DNA from: Styela clava | Taxonomy: Eukaryota > Chordata > Ascidiacea > Stolidobranchia > Styelidae | DNA length: 64,000 nucleotides | Reading direction: 5' to 3' | Assembly (NCBI RefSeq): GCF_964204865.1 | Contig: NC_135254.1 | Location: 12,591,001-12,655,000 of the forward strand | Part shown: in pieces, positions 23,689 through 61,105 of the stretch | Layout: each line of letters starts with the position of its first letter | Numbering within the stretch: position 1 is the stretch's first letter | Made by a program: the position numbers and the translations under genes | Notes under the pieces: model-generated | Databases searched by the model: none | Seen by the model: only the letters and a program-made list of their open reading frames with translations | Told to the model about the DNA's origin: nothing

Positions 23689-24908
23689 TTATTTTGACCG
23701 TAATCTTGAAAAAAAAGAACGAAAAACTGACAATTCAGATAAAGTCGGGTCAGATATCGCACGGGTGCTTTTCTGTTTTGAATCTGTACTTAGTCTTGTA
23801 ATATTTCCATCACTTCCATGCAAGCGTTTTTGATGGTTATTGCAATTATTAGTGTTGGCAAGATTTTCAAATGAATTTTTCCGACTCGACGGAAGTGAAC
23901 GATCTTTCGATTTTCCTCCTCGAAATATATTATGTAAAACTTGTATTGGAGATCTTCGGCCTGGACTGCTACATAAATCAAAATATTTTGAACGAACAAA
24001 ACGAGCGTAAGAATCATTTTCCATGATGTTGAAAACATATCTTTGAGCTCCATTGAATGTATCGATACTTGGTGTGGTATCAGTAGCCATATGTTGAATG
24101 ATTTGTTGACGACTGACGTGGTCGAGATTAATCTGTAACGCAAAATTAATATTTAGTTCCTCAATGTTAATTATAGATAACAATTATATACTTATCCTTG
24201 TATGTAATTGTGACTCATAACATAACCCGCTCTGAACGAGGTATTAGAAGCAAAGCATGACAGATATCATACGAAAATAGATAACCAACGATGATTCAGA
24301 TACAAAATTAACTGAATATTTCGTTTATACATTAGTGCACACACAGATGGAATCAATTTGCAACATTGGCATGTATTTTTATTGAATGAAATCCCGGCCT
24401 GTTAAGTTAGTATATATCGATCCTTTAATGGCCAATGTACTTAACATGTGCTACATTATATGAGTTGGAGTATCAGAATTTTTAATTTACCTGGTTGGGT
24501 GCACCGGGGGATACGTATTCTTCGTATATTTCTCGCATTTTATCCTCCTTGGCATCTTTATTTTTCAACGTTTTATAATCTTCTACCGCAAACCAAAAAT
24601 CCAAATTTTCGACGCTGAATTCTGATTCCAGAAATATTCTAAATCCGATTCGAATTTCTGTAAAAACAATTAAAAGAAAGTCAGTAAATTTATGTTCTTA
24701 TTGCTAATATGATATAAATTGAAGACACAAATCTATAATATTGTAGTAATTATTAATTTTATGACAAATCAAAGTCTGTAAAAGTCTACTTACTTTTTTG
24801 GTTCAATGCCTCAATCAAAGACATTCCGTTGTCAGGGACGCAACTATTTGTATTGCCAGCATAAAGTTGAGTAGGTCTTTTCATTTTTGTAAGTCCACTT
24901 TTAGTCAT
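23689..24908 (-). CDS. RGS-domain protein C, R4-like
   Basis: Exons 24908-24794, 24657-24491 and 24132-23689 on minus, phase-1 then phase-0 introns, 726 bases and 241 residues. The RGS domain covers about residues 30-135: SEFSVENLDFW, INLDHVSRQ and MENDSYARFVRSKYFDL keep every G-alpha contact residue known from RGS4, so it should act as a GTPase-activating protein on Gi/Gq-type subunits. After the domain comes a Ser/Arg/Lys-rich tail of about 90 residues ending in FFSRLRSK, probably disordered. The N-terminus has no cysteine string or amphipathic helix of the RGS4/5/16 type. It is most like paralogue D, also sharing the tail motif CSSPGRRSP and the pre-domain NGxxLxEALN. The ATG at 24908 is the first in frame; the frame is open further upstream without ATG, and a TATA-like ATAAAAAG lies about 130 bases before it. 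Confidence 0.88.
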
Positions 24909-33327: not shown

Positions 33328-33741
33328 CATGGGTTCTCAACCTCCATTCTCTTGTTAAAGTAATATTTACACCAACATTTTGTATATTCTCACTATGCAA
33401 ATACCTGTAATGATACAAACGGTGCGTGAAAAGAAATTTGGAAATTAAAATTTTATATGTGTAAGTAACTGTTAATGTAGATGGCCAAAGTTGATTGTGT
33501 GGAGTTCACATAACTACAATTAAAGCAGCACGCAATAAGGCTATTGTATATTGCAAACTAAAAAACAGACAAACTCTCTGCTATGTGGTGTACTGATATT
33601 TGTTTATGAACAGAAATAGAACCGACAGTTTATTCTTGTAGAAATACGTGAAATTCTTTTGCACAAAATTCACCATTTACCCCCAAAGTAGGTCGAATTT
33701 ATCTCCAGGGGGGCAAATTTTTACCCAGTTAAGGACCTCAC
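33328..33741. mobile_element. Diverged relative of the CAGGGGTTCTCAA element
   Basis: The left end (CATGGGTTCTCAACC) and right end (TTAAGGACCTCAC) are worn versions of the ends at 29561 and 29800. Internal similarity also shows: both have CCCCAAAG followed by GG-rich and AATTT words near the right end and a CAAATACC word near the middle. The boundaries are approximate. Confidence 0.5.
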
Positions 33742-34001: not shown

Positions 34002-36165
34002 CTATCTGTCTCTCAAGCCTTCCTTTTCTGTAATAATACCGAAAAACTGGCCTTTGTCGCCTACATATTTCCATCCGATGTGGTTCTCACATTTGACACA
34101 TCTGCAAATGATCCATTTATATCCTGTAAACCAGGTTGCCCACCCAATTGCCTGATAAAACAAATTGAAATAAAGCAGTTGAATTCATAGCAAAAATATA
34201 GTGGTCATGTATTTCTAAGCTGGCACAGTCAATCTAGTGTCGTATGACTAGATCATATTTGAGCATTTTGAGCAATAACAGTTATCAAATTATATATTGA
34301 ATAAATAAAAACCAAGTTAACGAATAGGCTTGACTATGCAGGGAGTATCCTAGTTAAGGATGAAATGTATTATATTGAATATGCGAATCGTTTGCGGTAA
34401 CAATCCAAGAACTTTGAATTCACCTAATCATTTAAATAGCATTTCCAGATCGTACTGTTTACCTCGCTAACTTCTTTGTAAGACTCATCAATGATCTTGT
34501 TGAAAGTGACGATATTGAAGCAATATCCGTGGGGATTTTTCACAGAAAAAACACAAACTTGTGGTTTTCCGCAAATTGTCTGGCGTTCTCGTTTAAATTC
34601 CAAGTCACAATGAATCTCTGCCAAATCTTTTCCATCTGCTATCTCGCGTTTGCAATTTTCACAGCTGAACACTGTAATTCATAATACAACAGTGCCAGTT
34701 ACATGGGGGATTTTGAGCGGAAGATAGTACATATGAAAACAAACTACTCACTTTCATATTCTACAGACCCACCATTGCAGTTGTAATAATGGTTATGGAC
34801 ATTTTTAATGATATTCTCATTTCCCATAAAAACTTTCTTTCCAATAACATCTTCATGAATACTGAAGGATTCTGTCGATGAGGTGAACAGTGCGTTAAAT
34901 CTCATTTTAACACCAATCTTCCCTATGCCTAATGCGGAATTACAAAGAATTTAATTGGGATTTCAGAAATAAAGATTTATCGGAAAAATATTGTTTTCGA
35001 TATGAGCAGTATGCGTTTTTCATTGTAAGATCTTGAATGTGCGATAAAAGTTAAGGGAGAATATTCAATCTTATATTTAGAATACATTAATGCAAAAAAA
35101 GAAATTCAGAATCAACTTACGATGCCGTCCGGATGCTCGTGAACTCCACGAATATAGTAGACTCTTTTCACTGTATTTTCTAGACATGGGCAAGGATAGG
35201 GTATTTCTATCAATTTCTAATCCGTTGTCATTGTTTATGGTATACTCCAACTTATCACCAGGACTAAAATCCTTTGTTAAATGAACATTTTTGTTTTGTT
35301 TGATTAACTCTTCCGTGATGGGGACTTTGAATTCCTTTGGTGTGACGCTGTGATTGGAACGAATGTGACAAGTTAGAGCAGATCCCAGATTTACCTTCAA
35401 TTGATTTTGACAACCAATACATATGTAGTTTGGTGAGAGATTATTCCCGTATGATTCAATACCTTCTGCAATTCCAAAGTAAAAAACAATTTTGTTTTCG
35501 TCAGAATCGTAAAAAATGTAGTAAGTTAGAAGCACCCCTGCTTTTTTGTCGGGCAAGGTCGAGAAAAAGGAACTGAAGTGCCACGTTTCAAATTCGACCA
35601 AGTTGGACGCTGTTATTGAGACAGCATGCTTGAAAGTTAAACAGCTCTTCCCCAGTACATTAACACATTTTGATGGATTTTGAAAACGCAAACCCCTCCA
35701 GGTTCGCAACCTCATTTTCACGGGCTTGTGAAAATTTAATCCTGATGGTTCCATTATTACAATAGGTGTTATCGGGATTTCTGACGACTGGCTGAAATCG
35801 GGAGCAAATATTGTAGCGGTGATCTTGACATTTTTGTATAGCGCACCGTTGGGAATTATCACATCGCAGTAATTTTTTATTCTTAGTGTTCCACCATCCG
35901 CTCCAACGATTTTGGCTGTAAAAAGAATAATTGCAATGAACTTGATGCCGTGGTCGTCATGAGATTTTAGCACATAACTAATAGGATTACCAATCCTTAT
36001 ACAAATACTTTTGAACGCAGCAGTTACTGATAATTCGGTGATGAGAAAAAAGAATGATAAACCATTTGCTAAACTAATAATGTACTACTTGGTTATGCAT
36101 AAAGTACACATGCAGCATATCATAAGGTTCTTACCGCATGAAGTCAGCTTTTCTGTTGTCCGCAT
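34002..36165 (-). CDS. ZU5 - UPA-like - CULT domain protein
   Basis: Five exons on minus: 36165-36135, 35915-35121, 34928-34752, 34671-34463 and 34151-34002; introns are phase 1, 1, 1 and 0, and the sum is 1362 bases, 453 residues. An in-frame stop lies 15 bases before the ATG. Residues about 12-130 form a ZU5 domain (GADGGTLRI, VIIPNGALYKNV), as in UNC5, PIDD and ankyrins. It ends in WHFSSF; His123-Phe124-Ser125 sits where PIDD and NLRP1/CARD8 cut themselves between Phe and Ser. A UPA-like segment follows (about 136-260). Residues about 330-435 match the CULT domain of cereblon: zinc pairs Cys338/341 and Cys422/425, and WFTGYKW...HIGW with Trp411, Trp417 and Trp431 spaced 6 and 14 as in the thalidomide-binding cage. 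The cereblon His378 position is Ala409. There is no signal peptide, and no CARD, death or LON domain. The exon 3 acceptor could lie six bases further in. I know of no named gene with this architecture. Confidence 0.85.
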
Positions 36166-39100
36166 CTTTCCGATCCACTATTCTCTTTATACTTTGTAAA
36201 ATTTTATGATGAATTTTAGTGACTTTGGTAAAGCTGAAAAATCGAGACTGCGCTTTTACAAAACAGTTAGTAATACATAACAATTGAATTTGAACAACAA
36301 TATTCGCCGTTTTCGACAATTAGGGAGGCGCCCGAGAAAAAACAAAACTATTGAACGTTAACACCCAAAATACAAAGTCTTTACTAATCCGTGAACAGCA
36401 TTGTTGCTGAAACAAAATGTCACTATGACTAACTGACTGACTGATTATATTGCATTAACATTCCGGTAAAAACATATTTGTAGCAATTTGCAAGTTGTGC
36501 TTGTTAATTTTAGTTGTCTAAAAACAATTTGAAATTTCATCAAAATCATCAATGAACTTTTTTTAGATATATGGGACAATTTCCGATTTTTATTTTGCCA
36601 TTGAACATTCACACATAGACACACACAGAAATATGGCTAATTTGTTTGGTGTATCGCTGCAAAAAGCAAAAGAAGGATTATGATTGATTTCAATATTGTG
36701 TTGGTTCATTGTTACGTACACATTTGTCGTAGAGAGGTTTATTCTTGAAATATTCATTGTTGTACATGAAAATGAATATATAGTAAGTATTAGCATTACC
36801 ATGACACTAATATTTGATTTGTAGCACCATTGTACTATGTCTATATTCCTACTCAACTGAAATAATGCAATCATATGACGTCACATTGGTACTACGCTGC
36901 TATATGTTCTTTGATATATATATGTTTTTTCGATCAATTGTGATATTCTTTTCATTAGAACAGTGAGATGATATTCGCCTTCTGATTAGTGTGTGATAGC
37001 GTGCAAAGTACACAAAAACAAAGACGAGACGTTCTTTGTTTTCGAACACTGCTTATATTTTTGTGCACAAAAACTTGGTAATTTCTCCTTTTTTCACCCT
37101 GGGTCTAAGGGGTATGAATTTCAACGCTTGACGTAGTCCTATTGTGCTAACATTTCAGTAAACACATCAATGCAACCTTGATAAAGCCCGATGAGTCTAA
37201 TCCAACTTGTAGTCGCTTACGAATTCTTATATAATAGTTGATGAATCTTTTCAAAAATATTTATTACTAATGTGTTTACATTGTTGTCTAATAACCGCTA
37301 TTTCAAGTTGTTTCACTCAAAATTCTGCAAGGAATTTTTTCATGAATCATTTTTAATTTCATCATTGAACAACAAAGCAAGAAAGAGTAATAGAAATAAA
37401 GTGGAAATGTTTGGACATATGAAAATGGTCTAAAAAACTAAACTAAGATGTTACACAATTTAGTCACTACACACAAAACAACATAATCTGTTAGAACACG
37501 TTTGTCGTGAATATCAAATGACCTGCAAACGTTAGCAACTTCGGTAAATCTCCAACAAAACTAATAACCAATATATAGATAGTAACTGGTTCAAATTGTA
37601 CCGACTCATCTCTATTCAGTTGAGGTTATGGAGTCCTACCTATATCTCCAGGGTGGATAATATTGACAATATTAAACATGTGGTATAAATACTTAACACT
37701 CCAATAAATCAAGAAAATGAGGTTGAAAATAGTAAACAAGCAAATTGGGTGAGGATAATTTTGAAACCAGAACTATGAAGCCAAAACTCGGAGCCATGCC
37801 ATTAAGTTTTGTTGGAGTTCGCGGAAATTTTAGTGGTTCGAGCTCTTAAGTGAAAATTCTTTTATGCTTGAAATCGGTCAATTACAATATTGCACAAGTA
37901 AAATTACTTCGATTGAAATAAGTAGCTTTTCCAACTGTATCATTGAGGATTTAATTCCCCTGATCAAAGTCCAGCTCGTATTGCGTATAAAATTTTACTC
38001 GATGAGTATATAAACAGATTATACAGTTATCGTCACCCTTCTCTGCGTATATGCGACATTGGTTTATGAATAGTTTTATTTTTCCTTACTTCGTTCGTAT
38101 ATCTTCAACAGCACTCAGAATTACGTCATATATCGTCAGCTTTATGTAAACTCATTTTTATTGTGGTTACTATTCTCATTAACGTCTTAGTTTAATTTCA
38201 GCGTCTTATTTATGGGATTTTGGTACGCAAATGACAAATATATTATTGGTATTTTTCAACATGATTCATTACCGCTCCACGCTTTAACGCGTGCATTTTT
38301 GCTCACACAAAACACGAGGAAATTACTTTTTCATTATATATATATCTATCATAAGCACTTCGCATTGAATGCATTCCGTCCAGAACAAATTTTAATCAAA
38401 CTTTATAGAAATATAAGATAGTACGTTTAGTATCCAATATACAGCACAAATATTAATCGCTAAATAATGAACCGTACGAAAGTTCCGCGTGCTCTATTGC
38501 AAGTGGTTACTATCGAGGCGACTAACGTCACAAAACATAACTTCGATCGGAAGGAAAGTATGGCGGAGTGAAAGTAATCTGCTACATATTCTGAATTACC
38601 GGTAACACACAGATTGATATTTGTAAAACAGTTTTAAGTTGGTGTATCCATTGAAGAGCTGTATATCTACGCAATTTGAGAATATGGAAAAAATACAAAA
38701 AAACTTTTCTTGAATGCATGTCGATTTAATGTTGCTTCCAGATACCAGTACTTACTCGTAAGCAACTATGGGGAAATTACTCAGTGAGAGAGAATTTAAA
38801 ATAAATGAGTTTCTTGAAAGAAAACTTTTAGTATGTAAATCATAACAAGGTTCACAACAGTCACAAGATTAACAGTCAAAATGTAACGGAAGTAATGCGT
38901 AAAATACTGTGAAATATCTGTGATCTACACAGTGAAATAATTTTAATTTATAACGGATGAATGTATTTTATAGTTTTTTACACCACACGAAGAACACTGT
39001 CCCAGAATCATGGAATATTTGGATAACAGTTTCAGAACTTCGTTCCTATCAGAAAGGGACCATGCGGTAATTCAGATGAAGTTGTGTAAACTAAAGCAGG

Positions 39101-42100
39101 AAATTCGCACCCCGATAATATGAGCCCCTATTACAATTGCTGTTCACCATCTTTCTACAAAAGATTTCTCATTGATATTTCATGCAAATATCCAAAGAAA
39201 ATAACAGCATGAAACTTCGTTTTTCGTCATATAAATTGGTCACGTGAAGAGTTAAATAACAAAACAATGATACATTTAGAGATCCATAGGAATTCAATAT
39301 CAACATATTTCAAATTTAATGTTAACAGCAATAAAATTTCATATTCATTGCATTCAGTGAAACTTACTTCCATTGTTTCATATAATAACTACTATTTACG
39401 CATGCAAATGCGTAATGCGGTCTTGTTTCGGTCGCATGCCATAGAACATGAAAATTACGCAAGCACTTGTATGTATTGTTGTATCGCTTGTATTGTTGAA
39501 ACACATGCATATAATATTTGACTAAGAAAGGTATCTTATATATTTTAATTTCTGACCTAATTATACTCCCTTATTTTAACATCAGACCAGTATGAAAATG
39601 AATATATTTTTGTAGCATTTCCCTTTTCGGACTCAATACCAGCTCAAGCCTATCATCAGCTAAGAATAAAATTAATATCGTTGGAGCTGTTGACGTTGTC
39701 AATATCTGTATTGATAACTGTATTATCCGTTTAAAATTTCCAATTCTTTTTCAACATTATCGTTGAATGTCTTGGTGATTACCTTTTGACTCTTATTCTA
39801 GTTGAATAAATGTTTGAATGAATTTGAATATACAAATAATATGCAAACTATATCTTTGTTTTATTAAGATATATATACAGAAGATAAGATCAGAAGATCT
39901 TTACAGCGTAATATCGGGCTTCAGTTACGAAGGGATTGACAAGTTTTGTGTCCATTCTAATTTATTTATTCATTAATTTATTCCACATTGAATGCCATTT
40001 TTTATTCTCAACCTATCATCGACATCATTATATCAGTGTAACTTTTGGGCTTGAATTGAGCTGTTTTTGGTCCATGATTGACAGAATATTCTGCTTATTT
40101 CTAATCTTATTTATGGATATGAATAACCCAGATATTCAGAACTATTATAATTATTTTCGTCCACGAACTGCATTTTAAAATAATTGTTTGTTAGTTTATA
40201 ATCGCAGATTTTTTCAATTTGTAGCTAACGATGCCCGGTGCGGGTTTCAACCCCAGAATTTGGCAAATGTTTTTGGATTGTATGTTGTCATTTATAATCC
40301 TCATCTGTGATGTGGAAAAAAAGGTTGAGAATAATTGTATATTGAGCGTGAATAGAGAATAGGGTGTATAAAGCATGGAATTGTGCTAAGGTATCTTTTG
40401 AATTTCATTCATAATTCAATTTGATATACATGCGATTAAGATGGTCATATCAAAAGCTAATTTCTGGGAATAGCCTCACGATCCAACGCCTACAATATAC
40501 GTTGCAAGCATAGCAAACAGATTTAGGTATTTTCCTAGTGGTATTGAAGTTGAGAGAAAAAGAACAAAGATACAGAAAATGCACTAATAATGATGAAATA
40601 TTTAGTCTGCTGTGAAATGGAATATTTTCACTTGATTGTCAAAATAGAGTTAAATTTATCAAGGTGATGTCTCATCTTTTATCAACAGTTCGATTTGTTA
40701 GTTTTTGTATTACTAATGCGTTTAGTACAGTTGATGAGTAGCAATTTGTGATATATATGTTATCAGAGATGGGGAATCAAACACTAATTGTTTGCGTATA
40801 GTAAAAACAAAACAGGTGCTAAATGTGAACCGTGTCAAACTCTATAAGTAGATACAGTGCATGTCTTCCGCGTTACTTATTTACCTATCAATGCTAGTTC
40901 TTTTAAAACTAGGTTACATTTGAGTATATCCTAGTTTGAACTGTTTTTGCACCTTATACTGCATTTGCATATTCAAATTATTAGTAGTATCGAAATCTTC
41001 CGAGAAGTCAAGAAAAATTTTGAACCACTGGTAATCAAAATATATGTTTTTCACACTATGCAAATTGAACATACGAAAATCTTTGTGGCATGACTCAACT
41101 TCTACCTTAAGACTGATTTCGATTTGACTAAAAACTCCACCATATATGCAAATTATATATCAAAAGTCTTCCTTTTATTTATAGATTTATTCCCTGTTGA
41201 ATATGAGTATCGGTCATCTTGATTTCATTAAGCATCTTCCTTGATGTCCCATTTCTTTGATTTTCATTCCTACTATTTATTATGAGAATTTGTAAAACAT
41301 TCCTAAATTGGAATCAAGCACTCGTACAAAGCAAGCATCTCCTTAATATTCCAAAGGAAGTATATTCGCCGCAAAATCTTGGGGAGTTCTCCGGTAATGG
41401 CTTGTATGAGCAAATTGATACAAGCAACTCGAATTACCATAGACTCTTGCCTTATCTTCGATATCAAGCATATAGATATAAATATCACAGAAAATTAATG
41501 TTCCGGAAGGCTTCAGATGTCAAAATTACGCAACATTCCAGATAATTGACAAAAAGGGAGGTCGGGCAAGACGAAAAAGCAATTTTTATTCTCCAATTAA
41601 TGTAATCACTTATGCCAAATTATCCCCCAGGAAACTTATTTTCACATGTCATTACGTTTTCTGTTATAAATCGTGTATTTTTAAAATAGTGACACTGGGG
41701 TATTTCATTGTTACTCCATAACAAATTTTGTTCACAAATATATTAACGACTCGATTATGCATCCCACACTAAAAATTATAATACGCCTTTCGGAAACTGA
41801 CGCGTGAAAGCTATAAACAGTCACTAAATGACGAACGTTAATAAATGTACAAACGCATAAAGCACGGAATTTTAATTATGTTATAACGCTGGTTCTCAAT
41901 ATATCTTAACTATTTTTGTTTTATTTAAATCCGTGTTCTTTTTATTAATTTTTCAATCATTGTGAAATATGCTCGCGTTGAATTGATTTGAGTGATTGGA
42001 AAAGCGGACTCTAACGCGACTATACCCGACTGAGGTCGAGAAACTGAAAGCCTGATGCCCGGCGGGAGGTCAGTGACATGGACACATGTGCAGCTTCTGA

Positions 42101-42191
42101 AGGCTATGAATAAGACACAACTTTTCATTATATATAGATTCCAATTGTTGCCGCTTCGAGTATCCAGCTGCATGGCCGATCGTATAACATA
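36166..42191. other. Long AT-rich stretch without a supported gene
   Basis: About 6 kb in which no exon with matching splice sites was accepted. The longest candidate is an 87-codon frame at 41282-41545 plus with ordinary-looking composition but no similarity I recognise, and an overlapping frame on the other strand. A GTTTCAACCCC word near 40241 resembles a tRNA B box but has no tRNA fold around it. Confidence 0.4.
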
Positions 42192-42467
42192 CCGTGTTTC
42201 CCCGAAAATAAGACAGTGTCTTATTTCAATTATCTTTCCGAAAATAACACTAGGCTAAATATGAAAACCGATATCCATTTACTTAAATGACTCGTTTTCC
42301 TCTCTTACACGTTTTAGATTAATCATTTAAAACGTATGGGAGAGATTTCTTGCTATCGATCAGGAAAAAAAAATTTACGTTATTGACTAGGTCTTATTTC
42401 AAAAGGAGGGCTTATATTAAAATCACTCTTAAAATAAAGGCTAGGTCTCATTTTCGGGGAAACACGG
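42192..42467. mobile_element. Mariner-like MITE flanked by TA
   Basis: A 276-bp element with CCGTGTTTCCCCGAAAAT at the left end and its exact reverse complement at the right end, each flanked by TA (42190-42191 and 42468-42469). Subterminal AAGAC/GTCTTATTT words repeat. Terminal repeats of this kind with a TA target are typical of Tc1/mariner-derived MITEs found in many animal genomes. No transposase is present. Confidence 0.85.
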
Positions 42468-43564
42468 TAGTTCACAACTTAGCTTTAAAACCAATGGGGG
42501 AAAAACATTTTTTGCACCTGACAAAATCACGCAGAAGGCCGACTGTCACTGATTCGTATCCTGATGTGGCAGTTGTAACAACTGCTACTGTCACCGTAAA
42601 ACGTTAGTTGCCTCGGACAAAATTCCTGACCCACAGCAATGGAAGTTACCCCGTTACCCCGACCTTTGACCTCAAAAGATTTTTTGATACTTTTAGAGAG
42701 TATTTTCGAGAGTTGCGACTTTCCAATTAAGTAACATGTTCGAAACCATTTTTTTTTCATTAGAAAAATATATAACCACGTGCCGCTTACAGGTACAGAC
42801 AGCTTTAGCCTACCAGTAGTCTATCGCAGCTAATTTTTCTTTGTTGCAACTAAACTAAAGGTCCTCGGAGTATATAATAAAAATTAAAGTATTTCATTCA
42901 CAACAAATTTTTGAAAACTGACGAACAACACTCAAAACCGCGAAAACAAGCCAATGCCTACAACCATACTTGAATATCAGTCTGAACGAAAGATGTGTCG
43001 CAGCATTGATACCTTAACAAGTTAAGTCATCAATGGTCGCAGCGACTGCACAAGTTGCCATTGTTACGTCATCATTGACTTATTGCTGATTGAATAAATA
43101 GAAGTCCATTATTTCAATCCAAACTAGTAATGGACATCCTTGCACTATTATAATATGAAAGTACACTAAATATAACAGCAGAAGTGCTCCTACGTAATCA
43201 GAAAATGTTAATCATAAATGTTTTAAATAGGTAAGTTTTATTGTGTGTTTGATCAGTTGCGTGCACTGTTAAACAAAAAAGACAATCTGATTCCCAAAAA
43301 CCGACTTTCCATATTTGGAAGCAATATCTCGAGTAATATTTCAGTGTTTTGGTAAAATTCAATTATTCAATCGCATATGTTGTTGCAATATTATTTGTAA
43401 AAGATCAACATACAATGCATTTCCTAATTAATAACAAATTAATGAAGACAGTTACAAACAAGTACAGCAAGATTACGTTGATTTTTTTTGTGCAAAAGTT
43501 TATAAAATTAAATTTTCAAATCTTCTAGACAAATCTAACATAAAATGAGTCTATTATTACAGAC

Positions 43565-46342
43565 TCATATGTCTTGATCGATTGGTAAACATGCACAGAA
43601 AAAACGCCTTTTGGGAACACGGTTAGATAATTTTGCGCTGCAGTATTTAAATGTTGAATCATTTTGATTCTCATTTTCATAAATTGGAAATGAAATGGTG
43701 TAAGAACATTCTCTCAAAGATGTATCAATGTTGTTGCAGTTATTTATATTTATTGCAGTGTATTTCGCAGTCGTTCCTTTCCTGTTCGGCGACGGAGACC
43801 GATCGCGTGATTTTCCGCTATGGAGAATATCGTGCAAAAATTGCCGTGGCGATCTTCGTCCTGGACTGCTACATAGATCATAATATTTCGAACGAACGAA
43901 ACGAGCGTAAGAATCGTTTTCCATGATGTTAAAAACATATCTTTGGGCTCCAGTAAAAGTATCGATACTTGATGTAGTGTCGGTAGCCATATGTTGAATG
44001 ATTTGTTGACGAGTAAAATGATCAAGGTTTATCTGCGGAACAAATTGCAAAATATAATGAATGATAGAATATTAATATTTTAAATAATGGAAAGCAAAAT
44101 ACGAGCTAAATTACCTGATTAAGAGCTCCCGGAGATATATATTCTTCGTAAATTTCGCGCATCCTTTCTCGTCTTGCTTCGTTATTTTTAATTTTTCTGT
44201 ATTCTTCAGCTGCTATCCAGAAATCAAGATTTTCAACGCTAAATTCTGATTCCAGGAATATTCGAAATCCTACTTTTACTTCTGAACAGACAAAATTAAA
44301 ATGCATAATTGAGAAAAGGGAAGTAATCAGTATTATAAAAGCCTTGTGCGTATGATTTAATATTACGCGCACACATTTAAATAAACAATTATTAATGTGG
44401 TGTTTGATTTAAAAGTCGATATAAAAATGATAGCTAGTTTGACATTAGTGTGAAAACTTACTTTTATCGTTCAAAGCTTCAGTCAAGGGCAGTCCATTCT
44501 CGGGAACCGAGCTATTCTTTCTCATGCTCATGCTGTTCATTACAACTAGAGATTTTGGTCGCGTTTCGCTCGGTTTTTTAAGTGTTTTCTTTTTTCGAAA
44601 TCTAACAATTGATGGATTAGGACTCGTCGATGATGATCTAACATGCCCCTTCTGATAATGCTGTGATGGTTGCAACTTTGTCAAATCCTCACAACTCGCC
44701 ACTTCGGTTTTCATAATACGCGGGGTAAACGATACCACTGGAGATCCTCTTCTTATTTCTTCTCGTTCGAGGCTATATAAAACAAAACGCAACAGCTGTA
44801 CAATTAATTTAAAACCTGGATTGGTTGGATCGCCCTATTTATATAGGCGACAATCTCGAGAGTGATATTTATAATCCAATAAGTATCTCTTTGTATTGTA
44901 TAAATGAAAATGCCATATTTTGAATTAATATGCATATATATCGTTGGTTTGCGCGTAAGCGGATGTGGTGTGAAATTCTCGACGTCATTTCATATCATTC
45001 CTGTTGTTAGTCTTTCAATGAGAAAATATTGTATAATCGATAATAAACATCATTCAAACAAAGCGAAGCGTACGTTCGCACCAATCACCATACTGCATAA
45101 ATTGTGAAGATTATAACATTAGCATATTCATGGCAATTGGTAATCATGACAAAATACGAACTGTTTCAATCTGTGTTCTATGTTTCCACTACGTAGGAAA
45201 CCTTGCTAACCAGCGGTGGGATTCAAATTTTTTGTCAGCCGGTTCCTTCACAAAAAGCATAATTTTCAGCCGGTTCTGTCACAAACAGAACATTGATAGT
45301 CCCCAGTAAACTAACCGGTTTGCTGATCTCATAAAATTCCGTGAGACGGTTCTATAGAACCGGTGCACACCGGCTGAATCCCGCCACTGCTGCTTACCCA
45401 TTGAGAAATGAACGTTAGTTTGGCAAATAGAAACACAAATATCGGATCACGAAACGTACTTTATTTACACGCTATGCACGGTGTTAGGTTTAGAATCACA
45501 ACCAAGCCTGGCCTGCTGGTTTGTTTCAATTTTTTGGCCACACTTTAAAATTTCAAGAAATGTTTCAAGACTCAAGTCTGGTGCAGGCAACAGCAATTAC
45601 ATTTTTAAGATTGCTTGTAACTGCTCCAAAATTACCACCGACGAATTTTAAAGCAACTGTATATTAGCTCGATAAAATCGAGACAATGTTGAATATATGG
45701 AATGAACTCAATACTGATCATGCACGTTCATTAAAACAGTTATTAAAAAATAAACAAATTTACAGTTTGAACAAACGGACCGCAACAATGACTCCTGAAG
45801 GTAGAATTACCAACGAATGAACTTTTTTGTTCTGTTTTTGGACACATGGATCGGTTTGCTTAATTCCCGTTGGTATTGATGGGGCGATTGTCGGTGTTAG
45901 AATAAAAATCGCTTTTTCCGCAACTAATTGATTTAAAATTCAAAGATAAAAAAAAGTGGCTAGGTAACTATTACATTCAATATTTTATTTTTTCAAATTT
46001 CTGTTGAGCCAGAAGAGACACGATATTTCACAAAAAATATTGCTGTTTTTCTTTAATTGAAGGGCATTATTTTTCATTATGCATCGCTGGGCCGCGACCG
46101 TATTGCTTGTCCGCCAATCTTTTCAGCAAATTTGCTATTCTTGGGCCTTACCGCACCGTTACCGATACAAGACGTTCATATCTATATATTTGAGCATCGC
46201 TCTTTTGCTTGAATATACTTAATATCGGTGTCATTTTGAGTTTATATAGAAATCTACGTAAAAATTTGCGATTGACTTTAGCATGCCTTTCGACCGGTAA
46301 ATTACTGCCTTGAACGCTCCCGCTGTATTTGTTCAAGTCCAT
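43565..46342 (-). CDS. RGS-domain protein D, four exons with basic N-terminus
   Basis: Exons 46342-46152, 44772-44462, 44281-44115 and 44032-43565 on minus; introns are phase 2, 1 and 0, and the sum is 1137 bases, 378 residues. The first exon starts at ATG, encodes a basic stretch (KVNRKFLRRFLYKLK) that could bind membrane lipids, and ends at GTAAGG; its two leftover bases match the single base entering the next exon, which supports the join. The second exon is Ser/Lys-rich (SSSTSPNPS, FRKKKTLKK). The RGS domain follows at about residues 165-275 with all contact residues kept (SEFSVENLDFW, INLDHFTRQQ, NDSYARFVRSKYYDL). The Ser/Arg-rich tail runs about 105 residues past it, to the TGA. The gene is closest to C. 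Its first intron holds a 179-bp MITE. Without the upstream exon, Met at 44714 would be the first start and the protein 295 residues. Confidence 0.87.
45211..45389. mobile_element. hAT-like MITE, copy 2, inside an RGS-D intron
   Basis: 179 bp, starting CAGCGGTGGGATTCA and ending TGAATCCCGCCACTG. It is clearly the same family and the same length as 27784-27962. The flanking octamers TTGCTAAC and CTGCTTAC agree at six of eight positions, an eroded target duplication. It lies in the first intron of RGS-D, in the same plus orientation as copy 1. Confidence 0.85.
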
Positions 46343-50461: not shown

Positions 50462-50690
50462 TTTCAATCAAAAAAAGCCATTGCATCTTTTTGGTTGAGC
50501 GTTGCAGACAAATATCCATTGCTATCAGAAAAGACAATTAAAATTGCATTGCCTCTTGTAAAGACCTACATGTGTGAGTCAGCATTTTTAGCTCATACTA
50601 ATAGGATGACAGAATACAGGTCGAGACTTGCCGTTAAGTCGGACCTACGAGTTTGCTCGTCACAAATTGCTCCAATAATTTTTAAAGTGT
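50462..50690 (+). pseudogene. hAT transposase C-terminal fragment (ZBED5-like dimerisation region)
   Basis: The open frame reads FWLSVADKYPLLSEKTIKIA, then LVKTYMCESAFLAHTNRMT and YRSRLAVKSDLRVCSSQI. This is the conserved C-terminal hAT dimerisation region of ZBED5/SCAND3-like transposases (FWxS, YxCExxFS, YRSRLxVxxDLR). A stop sits directly upstream at 50459-50461, and only this tail is recognisable, so it is a dead copy. About 130 bases after the fragment, GGGGTTCTTAGCC and AAAGTTTGAGAA at 50825-50859 look like hAT terminal repeats and probably mark the right end of the element. Confidence 0.8.
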
Positions 50691-51289
50691 GCTACCTCGT
50701 CCATCACATAAATGTCGTTTGTGTTGTGTTGTTAATGAAACACTATCCTTCCTCGTTGGTTAGGCACAGAAATTACAGATACGGCTTAGGATGGGGGTTC
50801 GTCAAAAATAAAATTCTTAAACAGGGGTTCTTAGCCCAAAAAAGTTTGAGAAAGTCTGATCTAAAAGAACTAAATGTTGTCCCAAGTCTCGATATAATAT
50901 TAAGTCATTATAACATACACAAAAATCAGGTATTTTTTAAAGTATGGTTTAAACCAAAATTATTTAAAAAATTAAACAGAATATTTTATTTTATATCATC
51001 AAAAGATTTTATGTAAATCAGGAAACATCGAAGTTTTAGGCAATATTTATGATACAAAATATATCAAAACTGAAAATTTGATGATGGAAGACAATAAAAA
51101 TTAAGATTCTATACATGGTAAAGCGTAAATGTGTGCAAAATATTAAACATATATTTGCAATTGGTATGTTTTTAAAATTGATAGTGCTTCATTTTTCTAA
51201 TTTTCTCGAAAGTTTGATCGGAAGTTAATATTAAACGTATTATTCATTTATTTTACGGCCGTTACAAAGAGCAGCATGTTTCATATGTA

Positions 51290-57178: not shown

Positions 57179-57396
57179 GTATGCACAGTTGTATGGCACA
57201 TTTACTTCTACCCCCTACCTTACATATTTCAACCATTGTATTATTATATCATGGCACAGATACCAGAGTGTGACTGTACTACTAGTACAGACGTACTCTG
57301 GTTTCTACTGGTATCAGTGCTATGATAAAATAGGTAATAGTGCTAGGTCATTATTTGTAACCGATTTTATTATTGATTTGTAGCATATACATTACC

Positions 57397-57819
57397 ATGC
57401 CTTCTAAATCATCATTAAGCGACAGCAGTGAACAATATACTTCAGTTACTCGACGATCCATTAAACTGAACTCAGATGAGTTGGATTTATGGGAAATGTT
57501 CCACTATGCTGGTCTCACACTGGATCCACAAGTTTTTCGAGTAATTTTGGACTTGATACGTTTAGATATCCAACCAAAAGCTATATTGGATGTATTAGAA
57601 TCAGTATGTCCAAACAGCAAGCATTTTGTGCCTTGTGTGCAAAAAGAAACAGGACCGAAGTTGAACCAAACATCTATATCAGGCTCATCAAGCAGCCGAA
57701 AAAGCATTCCTAAAACTGGAACTAATATTGCAAAGGGTGAAACTTCAACACAGCTTCGTAAACAGTCAATACCAAAGCCAGATAAAGCGGGTGGCGATTC
57801 AAAAATATCCAAACGATGA
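57397..57819 (+). CDS. MZT2: Mitotic-spindle organizing protein 2 (MOZART2)
   Basis: A single coding exon of 140 residues. MZT2 is a small subunit of gamma-tubulin complexes, found at centrosomes and spindles. The conserved core lies at about residues 28-75: LNSDELDLWEMFHYAGLTLD, then PQVFRVILDLIRLDIQP, then KAILDVLESVC. It matches the helical segment shared by metazoan MZT2 proteins (DPDVFKILVDLLKLNVAP in human). The C-terminal half is Ser/Lys-rich and low in complexity, also as in the family. The ATG at 57397 is chosen because it is the first after an apparent 3' splice site at 57382-57383, so the 5' leader is probably spliced, in cis or in trans. An AATAAATAAA at 58081 gives a plausible 3' end. 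The gene faces the 162-residue minus-strand gene, tail to tail. Confidence 0.92.
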   Translation: MPSKSSLSDSSEQYTSVTRRSIKLNSDELDLWEMFHYAGLTLDPQVFRVILDLIRLDIQPKAILDVLESVCPNSKHFVPCVQKETGPKLNQTSISGSSSSRKSIPKTGTNIAKGETSTQLRKQSIPKPDKAGGDSKISKR

Positions 57820-58343: not shown

Positions 58344-58832
58344 TTAATCAAAGTCGTGTAAATATGGAGTGCTAAAGAACCGAGATATTCTATCCATCGT
58401 ATTTCCCTCCCCCTCACCAGTGACTCCCTTCCCTCCAATCGTCAACTGCTGGCCCATCCACTTTTCGCACGACCTTTGCCAGTCATCCACAGTATCAGGT
58501 GCATGACTCTTCCTTACTGTAACCAGTATTGATACTATTCCTATACAAAAATAGCAAAGCATGTGTTTTGCACTGCCACCTTTGTCTTTTACCATCCTCC
58601 AGACTATTTTCACCATGTCATTAAGAGAACTAACAGAAAAAACAGTCATGGCAAGAGTGCCGACTTTATTCCATAATGTCAGTACATCAGGGTCTTCCTT
58701 AGTAATTCCTATAAGGTAGTCTTTAACTTCTGTAAAGGCTGTTGTAGCATCACGAGTGTCAGGCAATGAAGTAAGGCGGATTACATTATCCAGAAATCTT
58801 GTTGTTGCACAATATATTTCGTCCCTCTGCAT
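58344..58832 (-). CDS. Unrecognised 162-residue protein in the NDUFS3-BOLA3 unit
   Basis: An intact single-exon frame with ordinary codon use, starting at ATG 58832 and ending TAA. Predicted mostly helical: an N-terminal helical part (residues 1-50), a hydrophobic stretch at about 85-105 (KHMLCYFCIGIVSILVTV) and a Trp-rich segment VDDWQRSCEKWMGQQLTIGG. The order of a central hydrophobic helix followed by a Trp-containing helix and a Gly-Gly recalls the BH1/BH2 part of Bcl-2-like proteins, but the BH1 signature NWGR is missing and I would not claim this without a profile search. It is the third gene head to tail on minus, 210 bases after BOLA3; an AG after a CTCTCTGCATAG tract about 75 bases before the ATG could be its leader acceptor. 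Confidence 0.75.
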   Translation of the reverse strand: MQRDEIYCATTRFLDNVIRLTSLPDTRDATTAFTEVKDYLIGITKEDPDVLTLWNKVGTLAMTVFSVSSLNDMVKIVWRMVKDKGGSAKHMLCYFCIGIVSILVTVRKSHAPDTVDDWQRSCEKWMGQQLTIGGKGVTGEGEGNTMDRISRFFSTPYLHDFD

Positions 58833-59041
58833 TTTATAGGATTTTTAGGAAATATCAGTCAAACCCACAAAGTGTGAATAGTATAGCTATGCAGAGAGTT
58901 TTTTACATTTGCTTTATAGCTTATTCTAATTGTTAAATATATGGAAGAAAATAGTGTTAATGTTGAATTTACACTCCTGCAATTGCACAATGCTTGCACT
59001 CTTTCTTGAGCAATGCCAACCCACAGGCAAAATTGGAACTT

Positions 59042-59437
59042 TTATTTGGGTGCTGATGTAAATATTCTTAAACCATGCATTTTAGAAACTTCCTCCTTTA
59101 GGGCATTTGTCACAAGCTTGTGTGCAGCAACAGTTCGAATTTTTGAAAAATCTTCCGATTCAATGTGAATTTCGTACATACTTCCACAACCACCTGAAAT
59201 ATCTTCTACATCAATTTTCACAGCATTAGGGAATCGAGTTTGCAAAATGTTAGTTATTTTTATCTCCCCTGTGTTCCCTTCTGCCGTGGATGTAGAAAAT
59301 GGTTGGCATATCCGTGCAGAGTGAAGTGCTGGTGCTGGTATAGAATTCTTACAAATTACTGACGTATTGGATGATTTACTATAGTTAACAAAAGTTTGGA
59401 GGAGTTTAACGGTACAAATTCTATTCGGCAACGACAT
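59042..59437 (-). CDS. BOLA3: BolA family member 3, mitochondrial
   Basis: 131 residues in one exon. BOLA3 works in the mitochondrial matrix with GLRX5 and NFU1 in passing [4Fe-4S] clusters to targets such as lipoate synthase and respiratory complexes. Residues about 55-131 are the BolA domain: ITNILQTRFPNAVKIDVEDI, SGGCGSMYEIHIESEDF and KEEVSKMHGLRIFTSAPK, very close to human BOLA3, with the cluster-ligand Cys of the SGGCG loop and the conserved His before GLRIF. The N-terminal 50 residues are rich in Ser, Thr, Lys and Arg with few acidic residues, a likely mitochondrial targeting sequence. A strong acceptor, TTGCTTTTGTTTCAG, ends 15 bases before the ATG without an obvious upstream exon. The stop codon lies inside AATAAA (AAATAAAAG). 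It is downstream of NDUFS3 by 367 bases in the same direction. Confidence 0.95.
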   Translation of the reverse strand: MSLPNRICTVKLLQTFVNYSKSSNTSVICKNSIPAPALHSARICQPFSTSTAEGNTGEIKITNILQTRFPNAVKIDVEDISGGCGSMYEIHIESEDFSKIRTVAAHKLVTNALKEEVSKMHGLRIFTSAPK

Positions 59438-59803
59438 AATTTAGTCAAAATTCTGAAACAAAAGCAAATACACAAGGTCATTATCATGTAGCTAATAAGT
59501 ATGAACCCACAAAAAGCATTTTTCAGTTAGGTAAATCTTCCATAAACCATACAATCCAATGGAAAATTTCATGAATATGGTCAACCACACAAGAAAATTT
59601 TAAATATCAAATACTTTGAGATAGTTTTAACCTTGGAAACATATCTACTGATATAACTGACTTTTCAAATAAACAATATGCAATACTTGTATATAAAAAT
59701 TCATGACATCAGCAGAAAGAAAAATTTTGTTTATGATGCAAATATTAATATGGACAAAGAAAATATCTCAAATATATTATCAAAGAAAACTTCTAAAATC
59801 AGT

Positions 59804-60607
59804 TTATTCATGTTTTGGAGGAGAACTAAGGTTGTCTGTATTCCTATGTTTCGGAAAGGCTTCCCATGGACTGTTAAGATCAAATTTTCTAAATTCTTGT
59901 GCAAGCTCAACAGGATCACGAACAACTCTGACAGCTTCATCATCCCATCGAACCTCGTGGTAACCAGACAAAGGAAAATCTTTACGAAGTGGGTGGCCAT
60001 CAAATCCATAATCAGTGAGAATCCTACGAAGATCTGGATGGTTACGGAATAATATACCATACATATCCCAAGCTTCTCTTTCATACCAATTGGCAGCACG
60101 ATACACACTACAAACAGAATCAACCGGTGTTAACTCGTCTGTGTAAGTTTTCACTCGAATACGTTGGTTGTATCGCAGAGAGAGTAGATTGTACACAATC
60201 TCAAATCGATAGACTCTTGTTGGTATATCATTTCCACACAAATCAGCCAAGGACTCAAATTGACATAAAGTGTTATTTTTCAGGAAGCTCATTGTAGTAA
60301 GTATTCCATCAGGATGTACCATGACCTCGAGCTCATTTGTATGAGTAAGCTGGACTTGTTGAATATACTTCGGTAAACAATTGGCAACATAATCACCGAA
60401 TTCCATCAGCTGATTCCATGCAACTTCCCTTGACATTTTAATTTCAGGTAAATTGTCGGTGGGAGGTGTGACACCATCTTCATTTGTCTGTAGATGACTG
60501 GAGCTTGCGATACACCTTGACAGACCCTTCGAAGACACGATTGGCGCTAAATTTGAATGAACATTAGTTGTAACTAAGCGTGAAATGCCTCGAAATAAAA
60601 AGGCCAT
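59804..60607 (-). CDS. NDUFS3: NADH dehydrogenase (ubiquinone) iron-sulfur protein 3
   Basis: 267 residues in one exon. NDUFS3 is the 30-kDa core subunit of mitochondrial complex I, in the peripheral arm near the quinone site; despite its name it binds no cluster. The family signature is complete: [20 protein letters not shown], then [20 protein letters not shown] and [10 protein letters not shown]. The conserved animal C-terminus [19 protein letters not shown] is also there. The first 40-50 residues ([16 protein letters not shown] and on) are basic and look like a mitochondrial presequence. The frame is open upstream to an ATG at 60631, but CATTTCCAG at 60617-60609 is a good 3' splice site one base before ATG 60607, so I choose the latter. 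The stop TAA overlaps an AATAAA. Length matches the family. Confidence 0.97.
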
Positions 60608-61105
60608 TCTGGAAATGATAATAAAATTCATTAAGATGGCTGATTTTGCACTACGATCTTCATATAATACAGTAGAATAAATAGTGGTTCTTGTACTGGC
60701 AGACTGGTAGCGACATTCAAATGGAAGGATATAATACCGGTATGTTATATGTCTGTATGTTGATGCATCTATAAATGTGCAATGAACTCAAGTTGTCAAG
60801 GACCAACCTGCTGGCAGCACTGGCACCATTAATGACAAGTCATGCCTCAATTCCCGTTTGGGGAGAGTCAGAGTTAACCAATACCGGTACCGGTAGCTCT
60901 GTACCTGCATAGTATGTACTCAGCATATCAACACATTACCGTTATGCTGTTAAATTTATCCAAAACATAATATAGAATTGAGGGACTACAAAACCGTTCT
61001 CGCGCTGTTCAAGAAACTCCGACTTATGGCTGTATAAATTCTGTTTTGCACCAGCCCATATGAGTCTCATATGGGGTGGTATGAGTGGGATATGACCAGA
61101 TAATT
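60608..61105. promoter_or_regulatory. Upstream region of NDUFS3
   Basis: This stretch should hold the promoter of the NDUFS3-BOLA3 unit and its leader intron. It has several ACCGGTA/TACCGGT palindromes (near 60737, 60882 and 60888). No TATA box is obvious, as usual for housekeeping genes. Confidence 0.4.

Follow-up and report, generated by a model that had tools for sequence, protein, structure and literature searches.

The minus strand of the window, by which we mean the whole stretch of 64,000 nucleotides of Styela clava DNA analysed here, very probably carries at positions 34002-36165 a gene that joins a ZU5 domain to a C-terminal CULT domain. Both domains are known, the arrangement was not found to have been described, and the pairing may be new.

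Gene structure

The joined frame is made of five exons and remains open throughout its 453 codons, after which a stop codon follows. Exon 1 (36135-36165, 31 nt) provides the proposed start and the peptide MRTTEKLTSC and ends at a GT donor. Exon 2 (35121-35915, 795 nt, phase 1-1) encodes the ZU5 domain and then a UPA-like region up to residue 275, and exon 3 (34752-34928, 177 nt, phase 1-1) a linker whose only match in the Styela genome is itself. The CULT domain is divided between exon 4 (34463-34671), with C338, C341 and the NPHGY motif from residue 380, and exon 5 (34002-34151), with W411, W417, C422, C425 and W431 followed by the stop. All four introns are bordered by GT and AG, measure 219, 192, 80 and 311 nt and lie in phases 1, 1, 1 and 0, so that the five-exon, 453-residue model of the initial annotation was obtained again when the frame and junctions were re-derived. 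A candidate polyadenylation signal, AATAAA, is located at 33629..33634 of the minus strand, 368 nt beyond the stop codon.

Exon 1 is the least certain exon, as it has only 10 codons and no homology, and its codon score is not decisive, being higher in another frame. Upstream of its start there is an in-frame TAG, with four codons between. Inspection by eye of the minus strand from 36166 to 43600 gave no convincing further upstream exons. The ascidian spliced leader gave two matches, neither of them followed by a donor, and the reversed control gave one, so the spliced leader lends the model no support.

The joint between the ZU5 half and the CULT half is supported by the open frame, the splice phases and the codon use. 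Exon 3 is open over 58 codons, a length matched by 2.1% of the frames in those stretches of the window treated as non-coding, and its phases fit those of its neighbours on both sides. Of the 1332 open frames compared with it, which overlap and are not independent, 0.7% have a codon score at least as high, the background of the score coming from one of the same stretches. Moreover, each of the five exons has a positive codon score. The junction from 34463 to 34151, for which the initial annotation had wanted particular confirmation, agrees with the alignment of exons 4 and 5 to successive parts of a secreted-type CULT protein of the same genome (residues 24-87, E=7.7e-6, and residues 96-121, E=0.0066).

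The same stretch could instead hold two neighbouring genes, a ZU5-UPA gene made of exons 1-2 and a CULT gene made of exons 3-5 or 4-5 with a first exon of its own. This would suit the lack of relatives of exon 3, the stop that is soon met when exon 2 is read through, the ATTAAA found within intron 2 at 34955 and the existence of a paralogous CULT gene (L012) that stands alone and has an apparent signal peptide by eye. We consider it quite unlikely, for introns 2 and 3 have just 192 and 80 nt, inspection by eye showed neither a signal-peptide exon nor any other first exon for the CULT domain, exon 2 shares its terminal phase-1 donor with most of the paralogous modules, and exon 3 is open, coding-like and of phase 1-1. 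A second possibility, compatible with the single fused gene that we prefer, is that alternative splicing also yields the CULT domain as a separate short protein. The intron phases would allow it, since exons 2 and 3 are both of phase 1-1 and exon 1 can therefore join exon 4 in frame; such a form is nonetheless unlikely.

Neighbouring and other loci

The ZU5-CULT gene is flanked by two similar exons of RGS-domain genes, both on the same strand as the gene (23689-24183 and 43565-44071, minus strand). Further along the window, long open frames match MOZART2 (57361-57819, plus strand), BolA-like proteins (59042-59440, minus strand) and the NADH dehydrogenase 30 kDa subunit (59804-60787, minus strand), and an open frame of 166 amino acids (58344-58844, minus strand) gives no Pfam hit at E<=10. 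The stretch 50462-51016 of the plus strand resembles weakly the C-terminal region of hAT transposases (19.4 bits, cut-off 21.4). Elsewhere in the genome a cellulose synthase exon (28.3 bits, cut-off 24.7) is placed about two kilobases from a glycosyl hydrolase 6 exon (42.4 bits, cut-off 27), a pairing not known in animals other than tunicates.

The ZU5 domain and the UPA-like region

The ZU5 domain that had been proposed for exon 2 is recognized by Pfam in residues 12-80 of the spliced protein, where it scores 25.6 bits (cut-off 21, E=1.5e-5). When the genome was searched, the exon likewise exceeded this threshold (28.7 bits), and the alignment with 18 paralogous modules extends the domain to about residue 130. 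When the protein was compared with the PDB, ZU5 chains of ZO-1 and ankyrin were obtained at E values from 0.0024 to 0.21; three further chains, at E=0.46 to 1.2, look like chance matches.

The UPA half of the earlier description ZU5-UPA-like is a fit of position and length that no profile supports. Pfam finds UPA neither in the window protein (E<=10) nor in any of the 19 aligned modules, that of the window included (E<=0.1), and FIIND is absent among the Pfam matches of the window protein up to E=10. An exon-by-exon search of the genome likewise gave no UPA above the cut-off, a weak negative because the UPA of ankyrin was missed by the same search. AlphaFold2 gave no usable model of exon 2 alone (mean pLDDT 29.5, pTM 0.19). 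Within the UPA-like region, residues 176-199 (35350-35421, minus strand) have the zinc-finger-like spacing C-x2-C...H-x4-H. This stretch is absent from the aligned paralogues and is taken as chance, and the weak zinc-finger match of Pfam (E=0.095) sits at residues 189-225 and not there.

The ZU5 module elsewhere in the genome

The genome searched comprises 376.6 million bases in 379 contigs. With the whole protein as query and E<=10, at least 27 matches were obtained, namely four of its own exons, the secreted-type CULT gene, the cereblon gene and at least 21 other matches to exon 2, of which at least seven have E<=1e-3. Among the 22 ZU5 loci examined, many of which are near-copies of each other, a phase-1 acceptor candidate begins the module in 18 and a phase-1 donor candidate ends it in 19, five of these having a phase-0 candidate as well. 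The loci that lack a donor candidate are L014, L021 and L033, and the module runs on in a longer frame in L006, L007 and L015, of which L019 copies the last. Pfam recognizes ZU5 in 10 of the 19 aligned modules at E<=0.1, and the best PDB profile match of this family is ankyrin (E=6.7e-6).

The partners of the module differ from locus to locus. In L006 (922-3270, minus strand) Kelch (34.3 bits, cut-off 20.1) precedes ZU5 (24.0 bits, cut-off 21) in one open frame, with BACK just below its cut-off (19.6 bits against 20.9), and in its near-identical neighbour L007 Kelch stands before ZU5 by eye. Both run on from Kelch in a single open frame, unlike exon 2 of the window with its phase-1 borders. 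Downstream of the modules of L039 there are Death-like exons, whose Pfam matches (19.8 and 17.7 bits) are under the cut-off of 22.6. GBP, LRR, UBA and FN3 had also been proposed by eye as partners of paralogues and were dropped, as no Pfam match was above the cut-off in the stretches scanned. A ZU5 exon that recurs in the genome with mostly phase-1 borders makes the window gene look like a case of exon shuffling, and we take it as one product of the movement of this exon among partners.

The CULT domain

Exons 4 and 5 carry a CULT signal both against the PDB and against the secreted-type CULT of the same genome, as the initial annotation had anticipated. The best PDB match is chain 6r0q (E=8.2e-10), labelled 'Cereblon isoform 4', which we take to be a bacterial CULT protein. 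Cereblon labels are borne by 46 of the 54 distinct PDB sequences listed at E<=10, with E values from 8.2e-10 to 1.5e-6, and their alignments span only residues 377-447, where NPHGY, WFTGYKW and HIGWKY are found. Another PDB entry, 4V2Y, is described as a bacterial CULT protein (PMC4287342). Two other alignments take in the first zinc pair, that of Pfam Yippee-Mis18 and that of the secreted-type CULT of the genome (residues 335-434 in both cases, E=3.1e-15 for the latter). The Yippee-Mis18 match has 22.3 bits and is under the cut-off of 26.6, a shortfall of little weight because a cereblon exon and the secreted-type CULT of the same genome also fail to reach it, with 23.6 and 25.7 bits, respectively. 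The zinc cysteines C338/C341 and C422/C425 and the cage tryptophans W411/W417/W431 are all kept. The numbers first given for the tryptophans and for C422 and C425 were exact, and 338/341 completes them as the other pair of zinc ligands.

Two further CULT genes were found in the genome. One is a stand-alone gene of the secreted type (C6, L012/L035), whose single open frame seems by eye to include a signal peptide; an open frame coding for ankyrin repeats and a SOCS box precedes it by about 1 kb on the same strand (L035, 2001-3551, plus strand). The other encodes cereblon (C10, L023/L043) and matches the PDB cereblon with E=6.8e-43. The three CULT domains have 21 invariant columns, including both CxxC pairs, the three tryptophans and NPxG. 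In pairwise comparison the window domain scores 75 bits with the secreted type against 47 bits with cereblon, and the two former have in common an extra segment before NPxG, in exon 4 of the window gene, that is missing in cereblon. The intron of the cereblon CULT is of phase 2 and lies within the Gly of WFPG, whereas the window CULT has a phase-0 intron some nine residues before that point. The cereblon-like C-terminus first described thus holds for the CULT residues and their spacing, and the domain as a whole is nearer to the secreted type.

A tree was built with the three CULT domains of the genome, one PDB cereblon, which we take to be human, and 25 bacterial CULT sequences, these being every third by list order of the 74 loci, out of 80, that passed a motif filter. 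It gave the window domain no supported place and a very long end branch (4.08 changes per column), and the pairwise scores are therefore relied on. The bacterial relatives (L059-L138, 80 loci kept of 84) come from records whose titles name Cyanobacteria, Eremiobacterota, Acidobacteria, Chloroflexi, Aminicenantes and Limisphaera. The part of Lupas et al. (PMC4287342) used here lists a narrower set of groups.

The branch length bears on whether the gene is decaying or silent. Such a strongly diverged CULT domain, together with the failure of the genome search to find a second ZU5-CULT copy, could be expected of a gene in decay, yet no stop or frame break is present, the zinc and cage residues are kept and codon scores are positive in the five exons, and we hold decay to be highly improbable.

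The intact CULT cage also allows the protein to be imagined as a cereblon-like adaptor of a CUL4-DDB1 ubiquitin ligase, degrading the proteins bound by the cage. The part of cereblon that joins the ligase is the N-terminal LON domain. No LON match was found by Pfam in the window protein up to E=10, which makes this role very unlikely, and the cereblon gene of the animal is elsewhere. The lack of a LON match and the greater nearness to the secreted type indicate that the window protein is not a cereblon.

The HFS motif

The end of the ZU5 domain bears the motif H123-F124-S125-S126 (35569..35580, minus strand), in which the (H/S)F|S feature of self-cutting ZU5 proteins is present as H123-F124-S125. 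The site of self-cutting is described as HF/S for PIDD and as SF/S for CARD8 and NLRP1; in CARD8 the Phe and the second Ser matter for the cutting, after which the fragments remain together, and UNC5b has a Leu where CARD8 has that Phe (PMC3210808). The ending of the window ZU5 in HFS suggests that self-cleavage between F124 and S125 is possible. Within the 19 aligned modules HFS is found in five, HFT and HFC in two each, another residue before FS in nine and ELS in one, which makes 18 modules with S, T or C directly after F. By simple counting, the places of the CARD8 helper residues Glu-279 and His-270 are taken in the window by His and Leu, respectively. Past the HFS motif the window module lacks up to about 12-19 columns that the paralogues shown have.

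In UNC5 and the ankyrins the ZU5-UPA part serves as a scaffold that is not known to cut itself. The same fusion could accordingly be read as a plain scaffold that does not cut itself, to which the CULT domain adds an arm that reads a ligand or degron. HFS is found in only five of the 19 modules and the nearest PDB profile of the family is that of ankyrin, as this reading would have it, but the window module does have HFS and the Phe is kept in 18 modules; we judge it possible, if somewhat unlikely.

Proposed working

The reading that we prefer is that a phase 1-1 ZU5-UPA-like exon was shuffled upstream of a CULT domain of the secreted animal type, giving a CARD8-like layout with CULT in the place of the CARD. 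Taken with the working suggested here it is plausible, with a confidence somewhat short of even. The mechanism itself, for which we infer cleavage, ligand, location and output alike, is put forward more tentatively. As the N-terminus MRTTEKLTSC has no obvious signal peptide by eye, the protein is probably cytosolic. Its ZU5 domain would cut itself between F124 and S125, the halves staying together as in CARD8, and the N-terminal half would hold in check the C-terminal one, made of the UPA-like region, the linker and the CULT domain. The cage of the latter would bind the C-terminal cyclic imides of proteins that have aged or been damaged, or else another small ring of similar kind. Binding of the ligand, or loss of the N-terminal half, would then let the UPA-like part self-associate. 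C-terminal cyclic imides are described as being recognised by cereblon and as arising in protein ageing and stress and by PCMT1 (PMC11974815), and uridine-like ligands of CULT are discussed in Lupas et al. (PMC4287342).

A role as an immune or cell-death scaffold may be considered, and it gains from the HFS at the end of the ZU5 domain and from the Death matches, under the cut-off, in paralogues. A more far-reaching version of the idea, a self-cutting cytosolic sensor of damaged proteins through which an immune or cell-death switch would answer to cyclic-imide-marked proteins or thalidomide-type drugs with no part played by the ubiquitin ligase of cereblon, has a small chance of being correct.

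Comparison with known proteins

The nearest relatives on the CULT side are the secreted animal proteins of group II, described as a signal sequence and a CULT domain only; the window CULT is 33-38% identical to the apparent member of its own genome, and in the window protein the domain is preceded by a ZU5 module and a linker (Lupas et al. 2015, PMC4287342). Cereblon has in common with it the two CxxC pairs, the three tryptophans and NPHGY, whereas the CULT domain of the Styela cereblon is 25% identical to that of the window and has its intron at another place and phase. CARD8 and NLRP1 (FIIND-CARD) and PIDD (ZU5-UPA-death domain) resemble the window protein in the succession of ZU5, UPA or UPA-like region and C-terminal domain, and PIDD has the HFS of its ZU5 in common with it. 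These proteins end in a CARD or a death domain, whereas the window protein ends in CULT, is matched by neither the UPA nor the FIIND profile and is a putative self-cutter. The Kelch-ZU5 genes L006 and L007 and the ZU5 near Death-like exons in L039 have a related module with other partners.

In the part of Lupas et al. consulted, CULT stands alone as a single-domain protein, closes the chain of cereblon or forms part of a few proteins from oomycetes, kinetoplastids and algae (PMC4287342). For the other partner, fusions of animal TRADD-N to FIIND or to a UPA-ZU5 module, with self-cutting predicted, are described in PMC8195603, and ZU5 with NACHT is reported in cnidarians in PMC8260672. A full-text search of the literature, in a collection lacking most subscription papers, found no paper with ZU5 and CULT together. 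That the initial annotation knew of no described protein with this combination agrees with that search, and an unremarked database entry may well exist.

A CULT domain joined to a ZU5 module would be an instance, provided by nature, in which the pocket that binds thalidomide-type drugs is connected to something else than a ubiquitin ligase. The gene moreover presents ZU5 as an exon that moves about within the genome of a tunicate, and it raises the question of whether a C-terminal cyclic imide may be a danger signal in animals too.
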